64,000 nt of DNA from Spirochaetales bacterium. Its GTDB lineage: Bacteria > Spirochaetota > Spirochaetia > JABEVK01. The first letter of the stretch is position 1. Each line of letters begins with the position of its first letter. The translations under genes were made by a program, and so were the position numbers. Below, in pieces: positions 3,509 to 12,723 of the stretch. The stretch lies in assembly GCA_947478845.1 (NCBI GenBank), contig CANJXC010000001.1, positions 62,001-126,000 on the forward strand, in the 5' to 3' direction. A model generated the notes under the pieces. It was not told the origin of the DNA and made no database searches. It saw only the letters and a program-made list of their open reading frames with translations.

Positions 3509-3765
3509 TGTTTCGCAGGGAACCATGGCCATGTCCATTACACAATTCTTCTGAGGCGGCCCTTTTTTCTGGCCTACTCACTGAGGAGGGCATTCCTCAC
3601 AAAATTGTCCGACATGGAGACTCGCTGTGGGGATTCTCTGAAACAATCACCGACGGCTGGGGGCACGTTGAAACTACCAAAGAGTTCCAGCCTAGGCTTG
3701 AGTCTCTGTACTCTGAGTTTCAAAGCTCGGCAAACCCGTTGCCAGAGGAAGTCTCTGGCGACTAA
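3508..3765 (+). CDS. Small unknown protein, DUF2007-like
   Basis: An 85-residue soluble protein whose ATG overlaps the parC stop (TAATG), so it is probably the last cistron of the parE-parC operon. The pattern LHNSSEAALFSGLLTEEGIPHKI resembles the small DUF2007 (putative signal-transducing) family, which has a ferredoxin-like fold. This is a weak recognition from pattern only. There are no cysteine clusters, signal peptide or membrane segment. The end overlaps by four bases the stop of the RNase D-like gene on the other strand. Confidence 0.65.
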   Translation: MFRREPWPCPLHNSSEAALFSGLLTEEGIPHKIVRHGDSLWGFSETITDGWGHVETTKEFQPRLESLYSEFQSSANPLPEEVSGD

Positions 3766-4514
3766 AGGTTTCGGGCTCGCTCTAGCAACACTTCGTTCGA
3801 TAACACTTTCCACGGGGCCAAATCTGCAGATCTGGCCGAGGTTTCCCGCTCTGACCAAAGCACCTTTAGCACGATTTGCTGACGGGGCAACAGGGCGCCG
3901 GCACCTTTAACTTTCAACCAAGGCTCAGTTTCCTCCCGGTATGTGAAAGCCTCAACGGCACGCATTCTCTGTTCAAACGAGTGCGTCTGCCTTTTCTCAA
4001 GAAGTAACGCTTCCAGAGCATCTGCCAGCGGCAATAAGTAACGAACATCCTCTCGGGCATAGTGTTCCTGCTCCTGAGTGAGCGGTCTGAGATTCCAGTT
4101 GGAGGTTTGCCACTGTTCCTGTTTGACAAACTCGAGGCCCAACAGTCGGTGTGCAAGGAGTGGAAGAGACGGTTTGGGAAAGGAAGTCAATCTTGCGGCA
4201 TCGAACAGGTCAAAAAGACCTTGAAGCGCTATACCGTGGCAGAACTTCAGAGCGCGAACATCATTTTGGGCGGCCCAGATCACCTTTCGAAGGGAAGGGT
4301 CCTCTAGCCAGTTTTTAAACTCCAGCCAGTCCTTCGGGCCGGAGAAGGCCCGCGACAGTGGATCAAGCAACCACGAACGACCGTCTTCCAAGGCAATTTG
4401 GAAAAGGCAGATCCTTCTGCCGTAGCGGTGCAGATTGAAGTCCCCTTCCAAATCGAAGCCAACTCTAGTTTGTCGGAAGGCATCCTCACGGATGGCGGCC
4501 CAGGTTTCCATCAA
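3762..4514 (-). CDS. rnd: RNase D-like 3'-5' exonuclease (DEDDy family)
   Basis: Predicted 3'-5' exoribonuclease for tRNA or other stable RNA processing; 250 residues. The DEDDy catalytic set is visible: D-x-E in GFDLEGDF (about residues 18-25), the Exo II Asp in WAAQNDVRALK (about 82-92) and the Exo III motif YAREDVRYL, where Y and D are four residues apart. The C-terminal 70 residues (LKVKGAGALLPRQ, then L..RE...R) look like one shortened HRDC domain; E. coli RNase D has two HRDC domains and is about 375 residues, so this is a short form. The start overlaps the end of the upstream J-domain gene by four bases (ATGA). Confidence 0.85.
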   Translation of the reverse strand: MMETWAAIREDAFRQTRVGFDLEGDFNLHRYGRRICLFQIALEDGRSWLLDPLSRAFSGPKDWLEFKNWLEDPSLRKVIWAAQNDVRALKFCHGIALQGLFDLFDAARLTSFPKPSLPLLAHRLLGLEFVKQEQWQTSNWNLRPLTQEQEHYAREDVRYLLPLADALEALLLEKRQTHSFEQRMRAVEAFTYREETEPWLKVKGAGALLPRQQIVLKVLWSERETSARSADLAPWKVLSNEVLLERARNL

Positions 4515-4936
4515 TGGCCGAGATGTTTCTTGATCTTTTGAAACGCTTCACCAATCTTTTGCGACTGGGCCGTGGCCTTTCTCATATTCGCTTCATGTCC
4601 GGCATGCCGGTCCGGGTGGTGTTTTTTGAGAAGGCTACGGTGGACAGCCGTGACATCATCCCAAGAAGCCGAAGGAGTCAGCCCAAGGATTGCATATGCG
4701 CTCACTAACTCACCATCGAGCGGAGCGGAAGCGGGGGCTGAATCCTGCTTTGACCGCTGATGAAAACTTTGATTACTTTGACCAGAAGGGCTAAGACGGT
4801 CGGCACCAGTACGCAAAAACTCATCGAGTTCCTCTTCGGCTTGTCGCAGGTCGGGATCGGGGCTCATACGAGAATCTATCCTATCGGTGGCCAACGAGCG
4901 GATCAATCGGCCCAACCGATTCAGAATCGGGTCCAT
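4511..4936 (-). CDS. J-domain protein (short DnaJ-like co-chaperone)
   Basis: A 141-residue protein with a C-terminal J domain at about residues 80-141: AYAILGLTPSASWDDV followed by KKHHPDRH, which contains the HPD tripeptide that stimulates DnaK ATPase. The first 75 residues are acidic and low in complexity. There is no G/F region, zinc finger or substrate-binding domain, so it is a class C J protein with a presumably specific client. Its ATG directly follows the TAA of aspartate kinase with no gap, and its stop overlaps the RNase D-like start, so the three genes form one operon. Confidence 0.85.
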   Translation of the reverse strand: MDPILNRLGRLIRSLATDRIDSRMSPDPDLRQAEEELDEFLRTGADRLSPSGQSNQSFHQRSKQDSAPASAPLDGELVSAYAILGLTPSASWDDVTAVHRSLLKKHHPDRHAGHEANMRKATAQSQKIGEAFQKIKKHLGH

Positions 4937-6286
4937 TTAGTTCTCCTTTGGGTCAAAAAACACGCGATGAATGGCGGAAACTGACCTGTCGAGGTCCGAA
5001 GAACTCACCACAAAGGAAAGGTTGATGTCGGAGGAGCCTAAGGAGATGAGCCTGACAGGTACCTCGGGAATGGCCTGAAACACCCGTGAAATTCTGCTGT
5101 TGTCTTTCCAAACATCCTGCCCGACTAGGCACACGATGGCACAGTCCTCTTCCACTTTGACCGTTCCTAGTTCTTCCAGTTCTCTGACGAGGGGTCGGAG
5201 GTCACGTTTTTCCTCGACTGTGATGGACACTGAAACTTCTGAAGTGGCCACAAGGTCGACTGACAACCTTTGACGGTCAAAAATGTCAAAAATTCGGCGC
5301 AGGAAACCGTAGGCGTTGAGCATCCGACTGGAACTTACCGTTACCACCGTAACGCCAGCCCGCCCTGCGATGGCTCGGAGCCCACTACCCGGAGCTTCCA
5401 TACTGATCTTGGTTCCCGCGTGGCTCGGATTTTTGGTATTTTTCACGAGTACAGGAATACGTCGTTCCACAGCAGGCTGAATTGTTGCCGGATGGACCAC
5501 TTTGGCTCCGAAGAAAGCTAGTTCTGCCGCTTCAGCATAAGTGATGAAAGGAATCGAACGCGCGTCGGAAACCTTGCGAGGGTCAGTGGTCATGATACCG
5601 TCCACGTCTGTCCAAATCTGGATCTCGGATGCCCCCAAAGCTGCCCCGAACAACGCGGCCGAATAATCTGACCCGCCTCGGCCCAAAACTGTGGACACTC
5701 CGGCTAACGTCGACCCAATAAACCCCTGAATAATGGAAACAGATCTCCTGGGGCAAGTCAGTTTCCCTTGTACGGCATGGAAGGTTTCGGGCCAAAGAAC
5801 CGCAGCCTCACCAAAGTTTTCGTCGGTCTTAATGAAAGCCCTGGCATCAAAAAGCTGGGTTTCCCACCCTCTTTCTAATGCTGCGGCCCAAAGGATTGTC
5901 GTTGAGAGGAGTTCCCCCGCGCCAAGAAGCGCGTCTTGAACTCGGGGGGAACAGTCTTTCAAGAGCAGTGAGCCCTTCACCAGGGCTTCCATATCGCTGA
6001 GGTGGAGGTCAAGCTGCTTGCGCCCTGCGTCGAGGTTTGCCCCACGTGCCACTGCCTCCAGCACGATAAAATGCCTTTTCGCTATGGATTGAAGGAGGTC
6101 TCTGGCTAGTGGTTCCTCGCCATTTTGAAGAGCCTTCACCAAGCTTACCAAATTATTAGTGATTCCCGCCATTGCCGAGGCTACGAGCAGCAGTCCGCCT
6201 GAAAGTGAACCTGCGACGATGTCGAGCGCCTGAGCAATCGAGGTTCCATCCTGAACCGAAGTTCCCCCGAACTTGAGCACAACCAT
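4937..6286 (-). CDS. lysC: Aspartate kinase, monofunctional with C-terminal ACT domains
   Basis: Phosphorylates aspartate as the first step to lysine, threonine, methionine and diaminopimelate. The product is 449 residues, the same length as E. coli LysC. The kinase begins MVVLKFGGTSV; GRGGSDYSAALFGAALGA and IWTDVDGIMTTDPR are further active-site motifs. Two ACT-type regions follow after about residue 300 and suggest feedback control. A longer frame reaches 6403, but the KFGGTS motif normally sits at the very N-terminus, which fixes the ATG at 6286. No Shine-Dalgarno precedes it. A -35/-10 promoter at 6294-6322 ends seven bases before the ATG, predicting a leaderless mRNA. Confidence 0.93.
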   Translation of the reverse strand: MVVLKFGGTSVQDGTSIAQALDIVAGSLSGGLLLVASAMAGITNNLVSLVKALQNGEEPLARDLLQSIAKRHFIVLEAVARGANLDAGRKQLDLHLSDMEALVKGSLLLKDCSPRVQDALLGAGELLSTTILWAAALERGWETQLFDARAFIKTDENFGEAAVLWPETFHAVQGKLTCPRRSVSIIQGFIGSTLAGVSTVLGRGGSDYSAALFGAALGASEIQIWTDVDGIMTTDPRKVSDARSIPFITYAEAAELAFFGAKVVHPATIQPAVERRIPVLVKNTKNPSHAGTKISMEAPGSGLRAIAGRAGVTVVTVSSSRMLNAYGFLRRIFDIFDRQRLSVDLVATSEVSVSITVEEKRDLRPLVRELEELGTVKVEEDCAIVCLVGQDVWKDNSRISRVFQAIPEVPVRLISLGSSDINLSFVVSSSDLDRSVSAIHRVFFDPKEN

Positions 6287-6293
6287 AGGGCCA

Positions 6294-6322
6294 AGGTAAG
6301 GGAACCTGGGCAGAGGTGTCAA
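6294..6322 (-). promoter_or_regulatory. Promoter of aspartate kinase operon, predicted leaderless
   Basis: On the minus strand, TTGACA (6317-6322), a 17-base spacer and TTACCT (6294-6299). The -10 hexamer ends seven bases before the ATG at 6286, so transcription should start at or within a base or two of the start codon. Confidence 0.6.
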
Positions 6323-6381
6323 GAAAGCAAAGTCCTTTCCCACCTGTAAAAAAAAGACTACGATAATGGCGAGGAAACCGC

Positions 6382-6492
6382 ATGGATATCGAAAATATTG
6401 CATCTGTTGATAGAGCCTTGGCCATTTTCACCAGTCCGTTAAAGGTTTTCTTGAAGACACACCGTCACTCGCTCATGCAGGAAATCCTCTGA
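6382..6492 (+). other. Short ORF (36 aa) with strong SD before the helicase; leader peptide or frameshifted N-terminus
   Basis: ATG at 6382 is preceded by GAGGA (6371-6375) with a six-base gap, the best ribosome binding site in this intergenic region. The frame encodes 36 residues beginning MDIENIASVDRAL and stops at TGA 6490-6492. The helicase frame is shifted relative to it, is open from 6414 and reads as convincing protein. Either this is a leader ORF whose stop overlaps the helicase CTG start (CTGA), or one base has been lost between about 6413 and 6488 and this is the true N-terminus of the helicase. Confidence 0.5.
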
Positions 6493-8939
6493 TACCGGCG
6501 AGTCCTTCAGAGCGCTTCCTGCCGGCTGTCGCCGAGGTCCTCCGGGAAGAAATTGCACGCGCCGGTGGCAATGAGGTGCTGTTTGTAGGAACTGTAGATT
6601 CCCGGGGTATTTGCGGTGCGGTCAAGGCTGTGGCTCGAGGTGATCAGTCTTCGGTGCCGGCACTTGCACCGCATATGGAGTCGGGTGATCTCGTCATCCA
6701 CAACCATCCATCGGGAGTCCTACAGCCTAGCCAAGCCGACCTCTCGGTCGCTTCGCATTTGGGAACTCTCGGTATAGGCTTCTGGATTGTCGATAATTTA
6801 GTCAACCAATGTTACGCGGTCTGCGAACCCTTGCATCGGCCTGAAGGTGTGGCCCTCCCTCTAACCGAGATTGGTTTTCATCTTTCCGAGGGCGGCACCT
6901 TTCAGCAGCACCTGCGCAATTTTGAAACCAGAGACAGCCAAGTTGAACTGGCCAAGCTGTTTGCCCGCGGATTCAATGAAGGCAGCCTCGTGGCCGCAGA
7001 AGCCGGTACTGGCGTCGGGAAATCTTTCGCCTATTTGGTGCCCGCACTTTTGTGGGCTTCACGAAATAAAGAACGCGTCGTTGTTTCAACGGCAACGATC
7101 AATCTCCAACAACAACTGTTTGAGAAAGATATTCCTCTCGTCCAGAAGGCATTAGGGACGCAAGTCAAAGTCGTATTGGTCAAAGGTAGGCGAAACTACC
7201 TTTGTCCTTCCCGGCTGGCGGACGAGATTCGAGATTTGGCCTCAGATTCTACCGTGTCTGCCACCGAACTGAACGCCTTGGCCGATTGGAACGTTACAAC
7301 CCGAACAGGCGATATCAGCGAACTGGGGTTTGTTCCCGAAGATAGCCTCTGGAGCCGGGTATGCAGTGACTCAGATGTCTGCAGCGGCCTCAGGTGTCTG
7401 CAGGGCGACGGTTGTTTCCATGCGAGGGCGCGAAAAGAAGCTTCGGGAGCAGGGCTCTTGGTTGCCAATCACCACTTGCTGTTCGCAGACTTGGCGTTGC
7501 GGATGAACGGCTTTGGTATCGAAGCCACAGCTGTACTACCCCCGTTCCAACGCATCGTCTTTGATGAGGCCCACCATATAGAGAAAAGTGCAACTAGCTA
7601 TTTTTCCTCTACTTTCAACCGTATGTTTTTAGTGAAACAGCTGGGCCGTCTCTACCGAAAACGCAAGGGTCGCGCAGGCGGCCTGATCCTAACCCTGCAG
7701 GGTCTAGGAACCGAGCAAATTGATTTTGGCCGATTCCCCGCCCTGATCGGTTCAGTTCTCGACCTTCATGCCGCTTGGTCAGTTGAAGCTTTGGCCGTAC
7801 TCGAGGGGCAAGTAAGCCTAAGGATCGCTGGGGAAGCCGGAGACAGGGTGATGGATCTCCTGCTTCCAGGTTTGCAGGTTCTCCAGCATCCACTGAACCA
7901 ACTCTCCGAACTTTGCCTTCAGCTGTCGGAGGCTTGGGATGATGAGCCCGAAATTCCCTCGGAGTCCAGGGAAGTAAGGACCATTGGGAGGAGACTCGAA
8001 GGCCTTTCACAACTGGTGGATCGATGTAAGTCGTTCTCTCGGGATCAGCAAAATGTCTACTGGCTCGAGAGGGTCAGGGACAATTTAGGAAGTGCCCAAG
8101 TTGACCTTACCATTTCGCCGCTTTCCATCAGTCCACTGATGGTCAAAGCGGTGTTTGACCCCTATGAGTCAGTGATGTTCACTTCTGCGACACTTACGGT
8201 CAAAGGAGATTTTCAGTTCTGGTTCTCGCGGGTTGGACTCGATCTGGTCGACCGTGACAGGAAGATTTCGGGTGTGTTCCCGTCCCCGTTTGACTACGCC
8301 AGCCGCGTTTTGCTTGCTTGTCCAAGTGATTTTCCGATGCCCGAGCACCCCGAGTATCAGGCTAGGCTGGAAGCGTACCTACCGCCGCTGCTGATGGCCG
8401 CCAAGGGCAGCGCGCTAGTCCTCTTCACGTCCTATGAAAGCATGCGCAACGCCTGGCACAAAACACAGCCCGCCCTCGCTGCAGCCGGAATTGCGGTGTA
8501 CCGGCAAGGAGAGGCCGAACGGACTGCGCTTCTGGAACGCTTCAAAACAGAGATTTCGAGTGTACTTTTTGCAACCGACAGTTTCTGGGAAGGCGTCGAT
8601 AGTCCCGGAGATACCTTGCGACTAGTGGTGCTGTGCCGACTTCCTTTTCGTGTTCCCTCGGAACCAGTTCTTGCAGCCCGGATGGAACTTCTACAGTCCC
8701 AGGGTTTGGATCCTTTTCTAAACTTCAGCCTTCCTGAAGCCGTCACCAAGTTTAAACAGGGTTTTGGCAGGTTAATGCGCCATACCGAAGATTCCGGTTG
8801 CGTGGTGGTGCTCGACACCCGGCTCCTTAGGAAATCGTATGGGCAGGTTTTCCTGGCTTCCATCCCGGAAACAGCACGGTCTTGGGAAACTTCAGCCGAG
8901 CTTCTCGACTCACTTCCTGTGTTTTTGGCTTCCACCTAA
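6489..8939 (+). CDS. DinG/XPD-like superfamily 2 DNA helicase fused to an N-terminal JAMM/MPN (RadC-like) domain
   Basis: Iron-sulfur DNA helicase of the DinG/XPD type. Numbering from CTG 6489: residues 1-110 form a JAMM/MPN domain with the full metal motif, E29 in GGNEVLFVG and HxHx7Sx2D (H71, H73, S81, D84) in the segment HNHPSGVLQPSQAD. The helicase follows: Walker A GTGVGKS near 172, the cysteine cluster CPSRL...C...C...C near 239-310 that should hold a 4Fe-4S cluster, DEAH near 359, SATL, and motif VI QGFGRLMRHTED. The first conventional start, GTG 6576, falls one codon after E29 and would delete the metal-site glutamate. CTG 6489 has AGGA six bases upstream and overlaps the TGA of the preceding short ORF. 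A frameshift from ATG 6382 is the alternative; the conservative CDS is 6576-8939. Confidence 0.85.
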   Translation: MIPASPSERFLPAVAEVLREEIARAGGNEVLFVGTVDSRGICGAVKAVARGDQSSVPALAPHMESGDLVIHNHPSGVLQPSQADLSVASHLGTLGIGFWIVDNLVNQCYAVCEPLHRPEGVALPLTEIGFHLSEGGTFQQHLRNFETRDSQVELAKLFARGFNEGSLVAAEAGTGVGKSFAYLVPALLWASRNKERVVVSTATINLQQQLFEKDIPLVQKALGTQVKVVLVKGRRNYLCPSRLADEIRDLASDSTVSATELNALADWNVTTRTGDISELGFVPEDSLWSRVCSDSDVCSGLRCLQGDGCFHARARKEASGAGLLVANHHLLFADLALRMNGFGIEATAVLPPFQRIVFDEAHHIEKSATSYFSSTFNRMFLVKQLGRLYRKRKGRAGGLILTLQGLGTEQIDFGRFPALIGSVLDLHAAWSVEALAVLEGQVSLRIAGEAGDRVMDLLLPGLQVLQHPLNQLSELCLQLSEAWDDEPEIPSESREVRTIGRRLEGLSQLVDRCKSFSRDQQNVYWLERVRDNLGSAQVDLTISPLSISPLMVKAVFDPYESVMFTSATLTVKGDFQFWFSRVGLDLVDRDRKISGVFPSPFDYASRVLLACPSDFPMPEHPEYQARLEAYLPPLLMAAKGSALVLFTSYESMRNAWHKTQPALAAAGIAVYRQGEAERTALLERFKTEISSVLFATDSFWEGVDSPGDTLRLVVLCRLPFRVPSEPVLAARMELLQSQGLDPFLNFSLPEAVTKFKQGFGRLMRHTEDSGCVVVLDTRLLRKSYGQVFLASIPETARSWETSAELLDSLPVFLAST

Positions 8940-9027: not shown

Positions 9028-9306
9028 ATGGGCATACGGGGCGAAGTCTTTTCCACCAAAACCTCCACCGGCAAGCGGACGTATTTTTTCAATATCAAAG
9101 AAAATCGACATGGGGATCTGTTCTTGAACGTGGTAGAAAGCAAAAAACAACTCGACAGTTCTTTTGAGCGGCATTCCATGATTGTCTTCGAGGAGGACAT
9201 GGAGGTTTTTCTCGATGGCCTCAATCAGGCTGTTGCTTTTCTCAAGAGCGACCGCAAACCTAAACGAACACTCCCACGTTCCACGGGAACTACCACCGAA
9301 AACTAA
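9028..9306 (+). CDS. PUR-domain nucleic-acid-binding protein, BpuR-like (DUF3276)
   Basis: A 92-residue protein beginning MGIRGEVFSTKTSTGKRTYFF, with NVVESKK and RHSMIVFEEDMEVFLDGL. This is the pattern of bacterial PUR-alpha repeat proteins, whose Borrelia member BpuR is known to bind DNA and RNA and to modulate expression. One PUR repeat is about 70 residues, so the active form should be a dimer. The last 15 residues are basic and unstructured. It has its own promoter and strong ribosome binding site. Its 3' end overlaps the convergent rnhB gene by 17 bases. A role as a global nucleic-acid-binding regulator is inferred from the family. Confidence 0.85.
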   Translation: MGIRGEVFSTKTSTGKRTYFFNIKENRHGDLFLNVVESKKQLDSSFERHSMIVFEEDMEVFLDGLNQAVAFLKSDRKPKRTLPRSTGTTTEN

Positions 9307-9847
9307 GGCGGTGCACAGGAGAAGGCCCTAACTTAGCTAGTGCTGCTTTGTGTTCTCTCGTTGGATATCCTTTGTGTTTATCGAATCCGTAGCCAGGAAA
9401 TACTTCGCTCAGTCGCCTCATCTCCTTGTCGCGGTAGACCTTTGCCAAGATTGACGCCGCAGAAACGCAAGGTTCCAAGCTATCGCCTTTCACCAGAGCT
9501 ACGCACGGAAAGGGAAGATTTGGCACAAACAAGCCGTCGACAATTCCCGAATCAGGATTGTGTCCGGGAAAGCGAACGAGAAGATCTTCCCAAGCCAAGC
9601 GCATGGCAACAAGACTGGCACGGAGAATATTAATGCTATCGATCTCGGTGGAACCACAGACTCCGATTCCCCAGGCGGCCTGTTCCCGGATAACCAGGTC
9701 CCATCGCTCCCTCGCCCGAGCGGAGAGCTTCTTACTGTCGGTCAAACCGTCCTTGGGAAATCCCTCTGCGAGGATGACACAACCAGCTACAACCGGTCCG
9801 GCCAGCGGACCTCTTCCAGCCTCATCAAAACCACAAACCCGCGTCAT
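9290..9847 (-). CDS. rnhB: Ribonuclease HII
   Basis: Cleaves RNA in RNA-DNA hybrids and removes misincorporated ribonucleotides from DNA. The product is 185 residues. Family motifs are CGFDEAGRGPLAGPVVA at the N-terminus (catalytic D-E), SIDGLF-like IVDGLFVPN, VKGDSLEPCVSAASILAKVYRD with the third acidic residue, and YGFDKHKGYPTREH. The ATG at 9847 is chosen over an upstream frame extension because the catalytic motif begins seven residues later; an AGAAGGA lies about ten bases upstream. It is transcribed away from smc across a 77-base gap. Confidence 0.93.
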   Translation of the reverse strand: MTRVCGFDEAGRGPLAGPVVAGCVILAEGFPKDGLTDSKKLSARARERWDLVIREQAAWGIGVCGSTEIDSINILRASLVAMRLAWEDLLVRFPGHNPDSGIVDGLFVPNLPFPCVALVKGDSLEPCVSAASILAKVYRDKEMRRLSEVFPGYGFDKHKGYPTREHKAALAKLGPSPVHRLSFRW

Positions 9848-9924
9848 TGCGTTTTTTCCTTCTCGATGGTACATTTGAGGTCCTACGTGGCTGTTCCATC
9901 AAGTCCTCAGACCGGGAGCCTTCC

Positions 9925-12723
9925 TTGTTTCTAAAAAGTATGGAAATCTTCGGTTTCAAGTCTTTCGCCGATAGGGCTCGGATAGAGTTCACTTCCGGTA
10001 TCACAGCATTACTTGGTCCCAACGGTTGCGGGAAAAGTAATGTTGTGGACGCCATCAAGTGGGTTTTGGGAGAGCAGGCCAGCAAGTCTTTGCGTGCTGA
10101 GAAAATGGAAGATGTCATCTTTAATGGCACGGACAGTAGAAAGGCTCTCAATGTCGCCGAAGTAACCCTGACCATCTCCAACGAGGGTGAGGTTTTGTCT
10201 CTCGATTTGCCGGAAATCAGCATCAAGCGACGACTTTACCGTTCAGGTGAGAGTGAATACTTCATTAACAATGTTGTGGTCAGGCTCAAGGAAGTACGTG
10301 AACTGTTTTATGATACGGGGGTAGGGAAGTCTGCCTACTCGGTGATGGAACAGGGCCGTATAGACCAGATACTTTCTCATAAACCGGAAGAAAGACGCTA
10401 TCTTTTTGAAGAAGCTGCAGGAATAACGAAGTACAAGGCCAGAGGTCAAGAAGCTGAACGACGTCTGGAACGAACAGAAGAGAATCTGCGTCAACTTGAG
10501 GGTATTCTTGGTGAAATCCGCCATTCTTGGGAATCCCTTCGAAAGCAGAGTGACAAAACACTGGTGTATCGAGACCTGAAAAAAGAGCTTTTTGAGCTGG
10601 AAAAAGAACAGCAGCTGGGTCGCTGGAAGGGTTTGATAGACCAACAGTCTCACCAACAGCGTCGTCTCGAAGCCACCGAACTCAGTCGCGATCAGGCCCG
10701 TAGAGATTTAGGCGACTTAAACCAGGTTCTTGCCATTACAACCAAAGAGGTCAATGAGCTTGAGGCTGAACTCTTTGAGATTCAGAAGAAATTGCTGACT
10801 CTCGATCTAGAACGCAAGGGCCTGCTACAGCAACGGTCTCTACAGAACGAACGGCTGGCCCAATATGCTGAAGATGCAGCGAGACAAGATGTCCAGCTAA
10901 ACTCTGTCCTAATGCGCAAGAAGGACTTAGAGCAAGAGGCCGCTTCCTGGGGAGCAGAACTCGACAGACTGAAGACCGAACTCGAGGTTTGCCAGAAGAA
11001 CCTGGTAAACTATACGAAAGCCTTGGAAACTTGCAGGGTTGCTGTTACTGATCATGAAATCGGTATCGAGCGCGCCGAAATATGTTCTTTCGATCTGGAG
11101 CAACAGGATTTAACTTTTCAAGAGCAGTGGCGCCAATTGACTGACAATTTGGTGCAGGAGCTTGATCAAAGACTAAGAGACGAAGGATTTGCCTGGCACC
11201 GTCTCCCTGGTTTAACTAACAGTATGGAAATAACGTTGGCAGCGTTGAAAACCTTGCTGGCGGGTAGGATTGATTTGCTTAACACGCTTCTTGCCTCTCC
11301 CGGGTCTAGCGTAGAATCTCTTGTGCCCGTAGTCAGGCAAGTGGTCACTACACTAGGTGAAGGGCAACGATTACTGCAGGAGTTTGAGGAGAATTGGGAC
11401 ACTTATCGAGGGGCAATTCCTCAGTTTCTCGGTGAGTTTCTGGCTCCCGAAGGGATAATCACCCAAAAACGTGATTTGGAACATAAAATGGCCAAAGGAC
11501 GAGCCGATTTGAAGGTGCAGAGGGAGGAAATCCGTCACCGGCAGCAACTGAAAGACGAGGCAAACCAACTGATTGAGGTCCACCGGGCGACTCTGGAGGA
11601 TCTTCGAGTCAATGAGGTACGCATGCTGACACGTCAAGCTGCAGCCTTGGAAGGTGCCCAAAGGGTATCCCAGGAGCTTGCGTCCCAAGAAGTATTGCGG
11701 TCGCATACAGAAGCCGAACGCTCGGCAACAGTGGGAAAGCGGGAATCCTGTCTCCTGGATCTCGAAAAGCTGGTCATCAATCAGATAGGTTTCGAGGAGC
11801 AGGAGCATGCGGCACAAGCGTTGGGCAAACACCTTGAATCCGAGCTCTCCATGAAAACCAAGGCGCTCGCGGCACGAAAAAATGAACTGCAAGCTTATGT
11901 CGACCGAGTCAATCATCTTCAGTCCGAGGTTGAGGGGTTCCGAGTCACGCTTGTCAGGATTGATACAGAAATCGATGCGCTACTCGATCACTTCCGAGAT
12001 AAGCACTCTGTCGAACTTCAGGAGTTCGCTCCGGCGCTCGAGAGAACTTCCGAGTTGAGGCAAGACTTGAGAGAACTCGTGGCCCAAAAGAAGGAAGAAC
12101 TTCGACTGCTTGGACAAATCAATCTCATGGCGGTTGAGGAGTTTGCCGAGGTTGATGACAGACATAAGTTTCTCGGGGGACAGATCAATGACCTCAGGAA
12201 AGCACGCGAAGACCTTCACCGTGTCACGGCAGAAATACGGAAGGAATCTACCCAACTTTTTTCTGTGGCCTTCGAGCAGATACAGATCAACTTCAACACG
12301 ACCTTCCAGCGTTTATTTGGAGGTGGACGGGCTGAACTGAGGCTAACCGAGCCTGAGACTGTACTAGAATCGGGGATAGAGATGCTGTGTCAGCCACCAG
12401 GCAAAAGACTGGAAAACATCAATCTCCTGTCGGGAGGGGAGAAGTCAATGACTGCAGTGGCGCTACTTTTTGCCACATTCATGGTAAGACCGTCGCCCTT
12501 CTGCATTCTCGATGAGATTGATGCCGCTCTTGATGAAGCCAACGTGAGCCGGTTTGTAGACATGTTGACCGAGTTCTCCGATCGTTCGCAGTTTGTCGTC
12601 ATCACTCACAATAAAAAAACCGTTACTGGTTCTTCGACCATGATTGGTGTCACAATGGAGCAACCAGGCATTTCGAAAGTCTTGGCTGTTCGCCTTTCAA
12701 CTGGTCAAGAGGCAATTGCGTGA
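9925..12723 (+). CDS. smc: SMC chromosome-segregation ATPase, short form with no recognisable hinge
   Basis: Condensin ATPase for chromosome organisation, expected to work with ScpA and ScpB, which are encoded at 49227-50484. The TTG at 9925 is chosen because it gives the canonical N-terminus (M)FLKSMEIFGFKSF and has GGGAG six bases upstream; the nearest ATG would remove it. Walker A GPNGCGKS is at 31-38, the ABC signature LSGGEK at about 835 and Walker B CILDEIDAALDEAN at about 857-870. It is 932 residues, against about 1150-1200 for typical bacterial SMC. Between the coiled coils (about 400-530) I do not find the glycine-rich hinge motifs. The stop overlaps the next start (GTGA). Confidence 0.9.
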   Translation: MFLKSMEIFGFKSFADRARIEFTSGITALLGPNGCGKSNVVDAIKWVLGEQASKSLRAEKMEDVIFNGTDSRKALNVAEVTLTISNEGEVLSLDLPEISIKRRLYRSGESEYFINNVVVRLKEVRELFYDTGVGKSAYSVMEQGRIDQILSHKPEERRYLFEEAAGITKYKARGQEAERRLERTEENLRQLEGILGEIRHSWESLRKQSDKTLVYRDLKKELFELEKEQQLGRWKGLIDQQSHQQRRLEATELSRDQARRDLGDLNQVLAITTKEVNELEAELFEIQKKLLTLDLERKGLLQQRSLQNERLAQYAEDAARQDVQLNSVLMRKKDLEQEAASWGAELDRLKTELEVCQKNLVNYTKALETCRVAVTDHEIGIERAEICSFDLEQQDLTFQEQWRQLTDNLVQELDQRLRDEGFAWHRLPGLTNSMEITLAALKTLLAGRIDLLNTLLASPGSSVESLVPVVRQVVTTLGEGQRLLQEFEENWDTYRGAIPQFLGEFLAPEGIITQKRDLEHKMAKGRADLKVQREEIRHRQQLKDEANQLIEVHRATLEDLRVNEVRMLTRQAAALEGAQRVSQELASQEVLRSHTEAERSATVGKRESCLLDLEKLVINQIGFEEQEHAAQALGKHLESELSMKTKALAARKNELQAYVDRVNHLQSEVEGFRVTLVRIDTEIDALLDHFRDKHSVELQEFAPALERTSELRQDLRELVAQKKEELRLLGQINLMAVEEFAEVDDRHKFLGGQINDLRKAREDLHRVTAEIRKESTQLFSVAFEQIQINFNTTFQRLFGGGRAELRLTEPETVLESGIEMLCQPPGKRLENINLLSGGEKSMTAVALLFATFMVRPSPFCILDEIDAALDEANVSRFVDMLTEFSDRSQFVVITHNKKTVTGSSTMIGVTMEQPGISKVLAVRLSTGQEAIA

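Follow-up and report, generated by a model that had tools for sequence, protein, structure and literature searches.

In the 64,000-nucleotide stretch of Spirochaetales bacterium DNA that we analysed (hereafter the window; contig CANJXC010000001.1, positions 62,001 to 126,000), a gene of the RadC-like DinG kind lies on the forward strand at positions 6489–8939 and specifies 816 aa plus a stop codon. Its product joins a JAMM/MPN domain of the RadC type (residues 1–115, positions 6489–6833, + strand), recognized by Pfam PF04002, an AlphaFold2 model and fold matches, to a YoaA/DinG-type Fe–S helicase (residues 139–816, positions 6903–8936, + strand), and the fused gene is present as a single copy in the window's genome, which measures 2.99 Mb and is 99.75 % complete. 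The reading frame is free of stops from 6414 to the terminator at 8937–8939, and residues 1–816 are counted from 6489. No ATG, GTG or TTG was found in this frame upstream of E29, between the upstream stop (before 6414) and position 6576. AGGA (6479–6482, + strand), a possible ribosome-binding site, stands before CTG 6489 and ATA 6492, and in most homologues the ATG start lies two or three codons downstream of that position. The simplest reading is that translation likely begins at a non-canonical start, either CTG 6489 or ATA 6492. A mechanically called GTG start at 6576 removes E29, which would make the JAMM domain look broken and hide its site. An assembly or frame artefact was rejected on the basis of the stop-free frame, the full-length homologues in many genomes and the single genomic copy.

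Directly downstream (9028–9306, + strand) is a small DUF3276 gene (PF11680, E 3.6e-18), a family that includes PUR-type nucleic-acid-binding proteins of spirochaetes. Positions 9290–12723 carry genes for RNase HII (− strand) and an SMC protein (+ strand), whose frames, as called, overlap head to head at 9847–9874. On the other side, divergent from the helicase gene, positions 3762–6403 (− strand) encode an RNase D-like 3'–5' exonuclease that matches HRDC weakly, together with a DnaJ-domain protein and one resembling aspartokinase. Elsewhere, the flanks differ between lineages; the recurring neighbours resemble, as read by eye, sigma-factor, purine-nucleoside-phosphorylase and PPDK genes, and in the flanks compared we found neither a conserved operon partner that would explain function nor a recurrent neighbour pointing to proteolysis or crosslink repair.

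The JAMM/MPN+ motif has been defined as E-xn-H-[S/T]-H-x7-S-xx-D, with Asn accepted between the two histidines in distant relatives (PMC300881). An earlier note on this DNA had claimed the complete pattern for the N-terminal domain, and the residues indeed stand where it placed them: the motif reads E...HNHPSG-x4-PSQAD, with E29 (6573–6575), the predicted general acid-base Glu, H71-N72-H73 (6699–6707), whose histidines are predicted zinc ligands, and the stretch from S81, the predicted oxyanion Ser, to D84, a further predicted zinc ligand (6729–6740), all on the + strand and kept in every fused homologue examined. The domain search that the note had proposed gave 29.3 bits for Pfam RadC-JAB PF04002 with the N-terminal domain as query and 23.2 bits with the whole protein (cut-off 22.1), and the same model matched 57 of 57 homologous N-terminal domains.

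Loss of the E/HxH/D residues across orthologues had been named as grounds for abandoning the assignment; instead, E29, H71, N72, H73, P74, S81 and D84 were invariant in 28/28 fused homologues, which had been retrieved with the whole protein as query and with no requirement for the motif. A wider survey of fused helicases gave the same picture, with E, H, H, S and D present in 103/103 fused sequences of a larger alignment, in which a few species occur in duplicate and 80 named-genome loci had been retrieved by an HNHP-containing pattern, such that for the two histidines these 80 are not independent. All five residues were again found in 18/18 divergent fused proteins (25–44 % identical), chosen for low scores or odd matches and retrieved with a profile of the JAMM domain. 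A chance motif was thus rejected on all three sets. Overall, the JAMM residues are invariant in >120 fused proteins, down to 25 % identity, whilst the remainder of the domain drifts, and none of the fused homologues examined had a broken motif (an MPN− version).

The possibility of a different fold, likewise raised beforehand as a refutation, was addressed by structure prediction. In an AlphaFold2 model of residues 1–140 (mean pLDDT 89.9) the MPN fold of the N-terminal domain was confirmed: Foldseek placed RadC (2qlc, E 1e-4) first, followed by CSN5 and Rpn11 homologues, and the match to PfJAMM1 was recovered as well. Alignment with VIA-align gave Z of 10.2 for BubCD, 9.9 for PfJAMM1, 9.7 for Rpn11 and 8.3 for AfJAMM, and comparison with Rpn11, PfJAMM1, CSN5 and AfJAMM gave Z of 8.1–10.2 over 91–111 residues; rows at the top within 1 Z unit are to be regarded as tied, and their order carries no information on kinship.

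By its motifs, predicted Fe–S cysteines and fold, the remainder of the protein is a DinG/XPD-type Fe–S SF2 helicase, in keeping with the four-cysteine enzyme described in the earlier note. Pfam places DEAD and Helicase_C_2 domains behind the RadC-type JAMM domain, and amongst NCBIfam models, which begin at residues 137–142, YoaA scored best (556.6 bits, E 8.4e-167), with DinG next (1.7e-132). The full-length model (pLDDT 89.8, pTM 0.86) matches the fold of ssDNA-bound DinG (Foldseek, 6fwr, E 3.3e-40). Walker A (EAGTGVGKS, residues 171–179, 6999–7025), the DEAH box (residues 359–362, 7563–7574) and motif VI (QGFGRLMR, residues 757–764, 8757–8780) all lie on the + strand, as do the putative Fe–S cysteines C239, C298, C303 and C309 (7203–7415). 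Within the alignment, K178 was kept in 105/105 sequences, as were D359 and E360; each cysteine was kept in 104 or 105 of 105, and Q757, G760, R761 and R764 in 103/103 of those with residues at these positions. Both active sites, JAMM and helicase, therefore appear intact, as had been proposed. By analogy with DinG and XPD, helicase polarity is probably 5'–3'.

In order to follow the history of the pairing we turned to a helicase tree, rooted on Escherichia coli YoaA and DinG, both of which are long branches that leave the root uncertain. Unfused spirochaete homologues were nested within fused ones in three places, and a second tree with a few extra rows gave four changes. As the unfused proteins nest inside the fused ones, the simplest reading is that the fusion arose once and that the domain was later lost in full several times, and since several lineages would have lost it whole, the helicase can apparently manage without it. 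Wherever the JAMM domain is retained its site is intact; otherwise it is absent in full, and it was never seen point-inactivated. When inactive versions were sought by lineage none was found; the one candidate, an 888-aa frame in another genome (G019, locus L152), has an unrelated-looking N-terminus that the JAMM profile fails to recognize, and its domain was counted as lost or replaced. This N-terminal stretch may have taken the place of the JAMM domain or be what is left of it after decay.

Named relatives carrying the gene are mostly spirochaetes, and the fusion occurs in Spirochaetota, relatives of Geobacter and Desulfuromonas, Nitrospirae, KSB1, Poribacteria, Calditrichaeota and others. 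Plasmids and viruses were rejected as carriers, as no match to the fused gene was found in the plasmids or viral contigs searched, and it seems to be a chromosomal gene passed on by vertical descent. A role in anti-phage defence was also set aside, given that the PADLOC matches (type IV Csf4/DinG models) cover the DinG helicase part alone.

As to function, the reading that we favour, with a probability of roughly 0.4, is that the JAMM domain cleaves a peptide or isopeptide bond in a protein that the helicase encounters along DNA. A YoaA-type Fe–S helicase would move along single-stranded DNA; from the chemistry of AfJAMM and CSN5, H71, H73 and D84 would bind zinc, with E29 activating water and S81 stabilizing the transition state; and the zinc hydrolase would then cut protein on the DNA that the helicase has opened, allowing a single chain to clear blocked or crosslinked DNA. 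It is above all the substrate that we infer here, along with zinc, catalysis and direction of movement. The underlying precedent is that in AfJAMM and CSN5 the JAMM motif forms the active site of a zinc protease, in which the Glu serves as acid-base and the Ser acts at the tetrahedral intermediate (PMC300881). A second precedent comes from eukaryotes, where the work is divided between two proteins: the XPD-family helicase FANCJ enters the crosslinked protein and unfolds it for cleavage by SPRTN (PMC12279946). The JAMM protease fold, the intact helicase motifs, the DinG fold match and the long-kept pairing of the two domains, with its single origin, all favour cleavage of protein. So do the JAMM residues, intact in every fused homologue examined. 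Furthermore, the JAMM domain was only ever seen lost whole and never point-inactivated, the pattern to be expected if catalysis is what it is kept for. Counting against this reading are that the usual targets of JAMM enzymes are ubiquitin-like tails, whereas the one ubiquitin-fold gene sought in the window's genome was a single one of ThiS/MoaD type, that no conserved neighbour hints at proteolysis or crosslink repair, and that for RadC, the nearest JAMM relative, we know of no substrate. SprT also counts against it: SprT-type proteases are missing from most relatives yet present in the window's genome, and no simple replacement is therefore seen. Replacement of SprT by the fusion was tried as an explanation and rejected, with no clear pattern across genomes.

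A doubtful, but the best surviving, alternative is that the JAMM domain does the job of RadC rather than cleaving protein on DNA, for example by hydrolysing a modified nucleotide, a DNA end or a single dedicated partner protein, with the helicase bringing it to its target. RadC is nearest by sequence (PF04002; 2qlc, E 1.2e-6), and the HNHPSG signature is shared. However, the fused domain forms a clade of its own, a branch with support 100/99 parting 58 fused JAMM domains from 38 RadC JAMM domains, and it carries Arg50-Gly51 (Arg in 44/60) and Asp67 (50/60), RadC having hydrophobic residues in place of the Arg and the Asp. In addition, most relatives keep an ordinary, separate RadC, which argues that the two are not interchangeable. 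In the window's genome we observed only a 78-aa RadC C-terminal frame (G000:C1:270029-270250, L156) with AHSHPSG and without the catalytic-Glu region, which by sequence looks like a truncated radC remnant, whilst in same-genus relatives the RadC matches cover the model wholly or for the most part. Two relatives, G178 and G037, hold at least eight RadC-type JAMM matches each, over several contigs, as if RadC had multiplied there, perhaps on mobile elements.

To return to protein cleavage, a more ambitious form of it, which we consider unlikely, is a single-chain DNA–protein crosslink machine in which the helicase would unfold the adduct and pass it on to the JAMM protease of the same chain, a self-contained counterpart of the FANCJ–SPRTN pair, retained in many phyla.

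Processing of a ubiquitin-like modifier or Ubl-tagged protein at DNA, as by Rpn11, PfJAMM1 or the bacterial Bub enzymes, seems improbable: BubCD, PfJAMM1 and Rpn11 are the best structural neighbours (Z 9.4–10.2), but so many JAMM folds fall within 1 Z unit that this ranking is without weight, no recurrent E1, E2 or Ubl neighbour was recognized in the flanks compared, and a single ThiS/MoaD-type gene was found in the window's genome, on another contig. Least probable of all is a purely structural or protein-docking part with catalysis unused, for although MPN− domains without activity are known, Rpn8 and EMC8/9 among them, and the helicase persists where the domain has gone completely, the zinc and catalytic residues never vary in the set of >120, in which an MPN− version was not encountered.

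The pairing is old and widespread, and its active site is intact everywhere, which suggests that JAMM chemistry matters. Were the domain to cut protein on DNA, these bacteria would possess a compact system for dealing with DNA–protein crosslinks. Moreover, as the helicase ties the JAMM domain to DNA, the fusion could give a first handle on the role of RadC-type JAMM domains, a puzzle for decades.

The architecture itself is not new, having already been defined as 'RadC-like DinG' in section 3.8 of Cheng 2025 (PMC11981726), which lists E, H, H and D as conserved, sets the RadC-like domain beside PfJAMM1 and CsRpn11, gives the hosts as being without HolC and describes the type as without any research so far. 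We found no later paper using the name in the literature searched, which covers few subscription journals. The protein in the window is a spirochaete member of this kind, with an N-terminal JAMM domain on a DinG helicase, the conserved E/H/H/D and a host without HolC; judged by section 3.8 and the main text, which share with it the same N-terminal domain, the YoaA-like Fe–S helicase and the lack of HolC, nothing basic differs. The model protein there is from Desulfuromonas soudanensis, and the main text names no spirochaete; by comparison, the present protein is spirochaetal and likely has a non-canonical start. What is added here is that the JAMM site is conserved even in distant members and that the fused JAMM domains form a clade of their own, along with the pattern of loss, the range across Spirochaetota and beyond, the lack of a HolC partner and the lack of copies in the plasmids and viral contigs searched, although part of this range may already be contained in the tables of PMC11981726.

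Amongst better-known proteins, the helicase part matches best to the family of E. coli YoaA, which is 33 % identical to it over residues 136–802, but YoaA has no JAMM domain, and the fused protein stays below the curated cut-off of 680 bits for the YoaA equivalog NF053712. HolC (PF04364), moreover, was found in 0/41 genomes, including the window's own, in a search that recovers it in E. coli and Caulobacter. With RadC the protein has in common the JAMM fold and the motif HNHPSG-x4-PS-xx-D; it differs in its separate clade, in its Arg50/Asp67 in place of hydrophobic residues and in being without the RadC N-terminal region, and against the full RadC models it scores far below threshold (TIGR00608, 17.0 versus 133.85 bits; NF000642, 21.9 versus 180), with residues 68–93 alone matching. 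FANCJ and SPRTN also bring together an XPD-family Fe–S helicase and a zinc protease on a crosslinked protein (PMC12279946), as two proteins rather than one chain and with an unrelated protease fold, a likeness that is one of mechanism by analogy only. ExoDinG, the DinG of Staphylococcus aureus (8zef, 9ii8), is likewise a DinG helicase that carries a further catalytic domain at its N-terminus; there the domain is an exonuclease, and the JAMM domain of the fused protein sits, as the earlier note had remarked, at the N-terminal place that the exonuclease holds in other DinG proteins.
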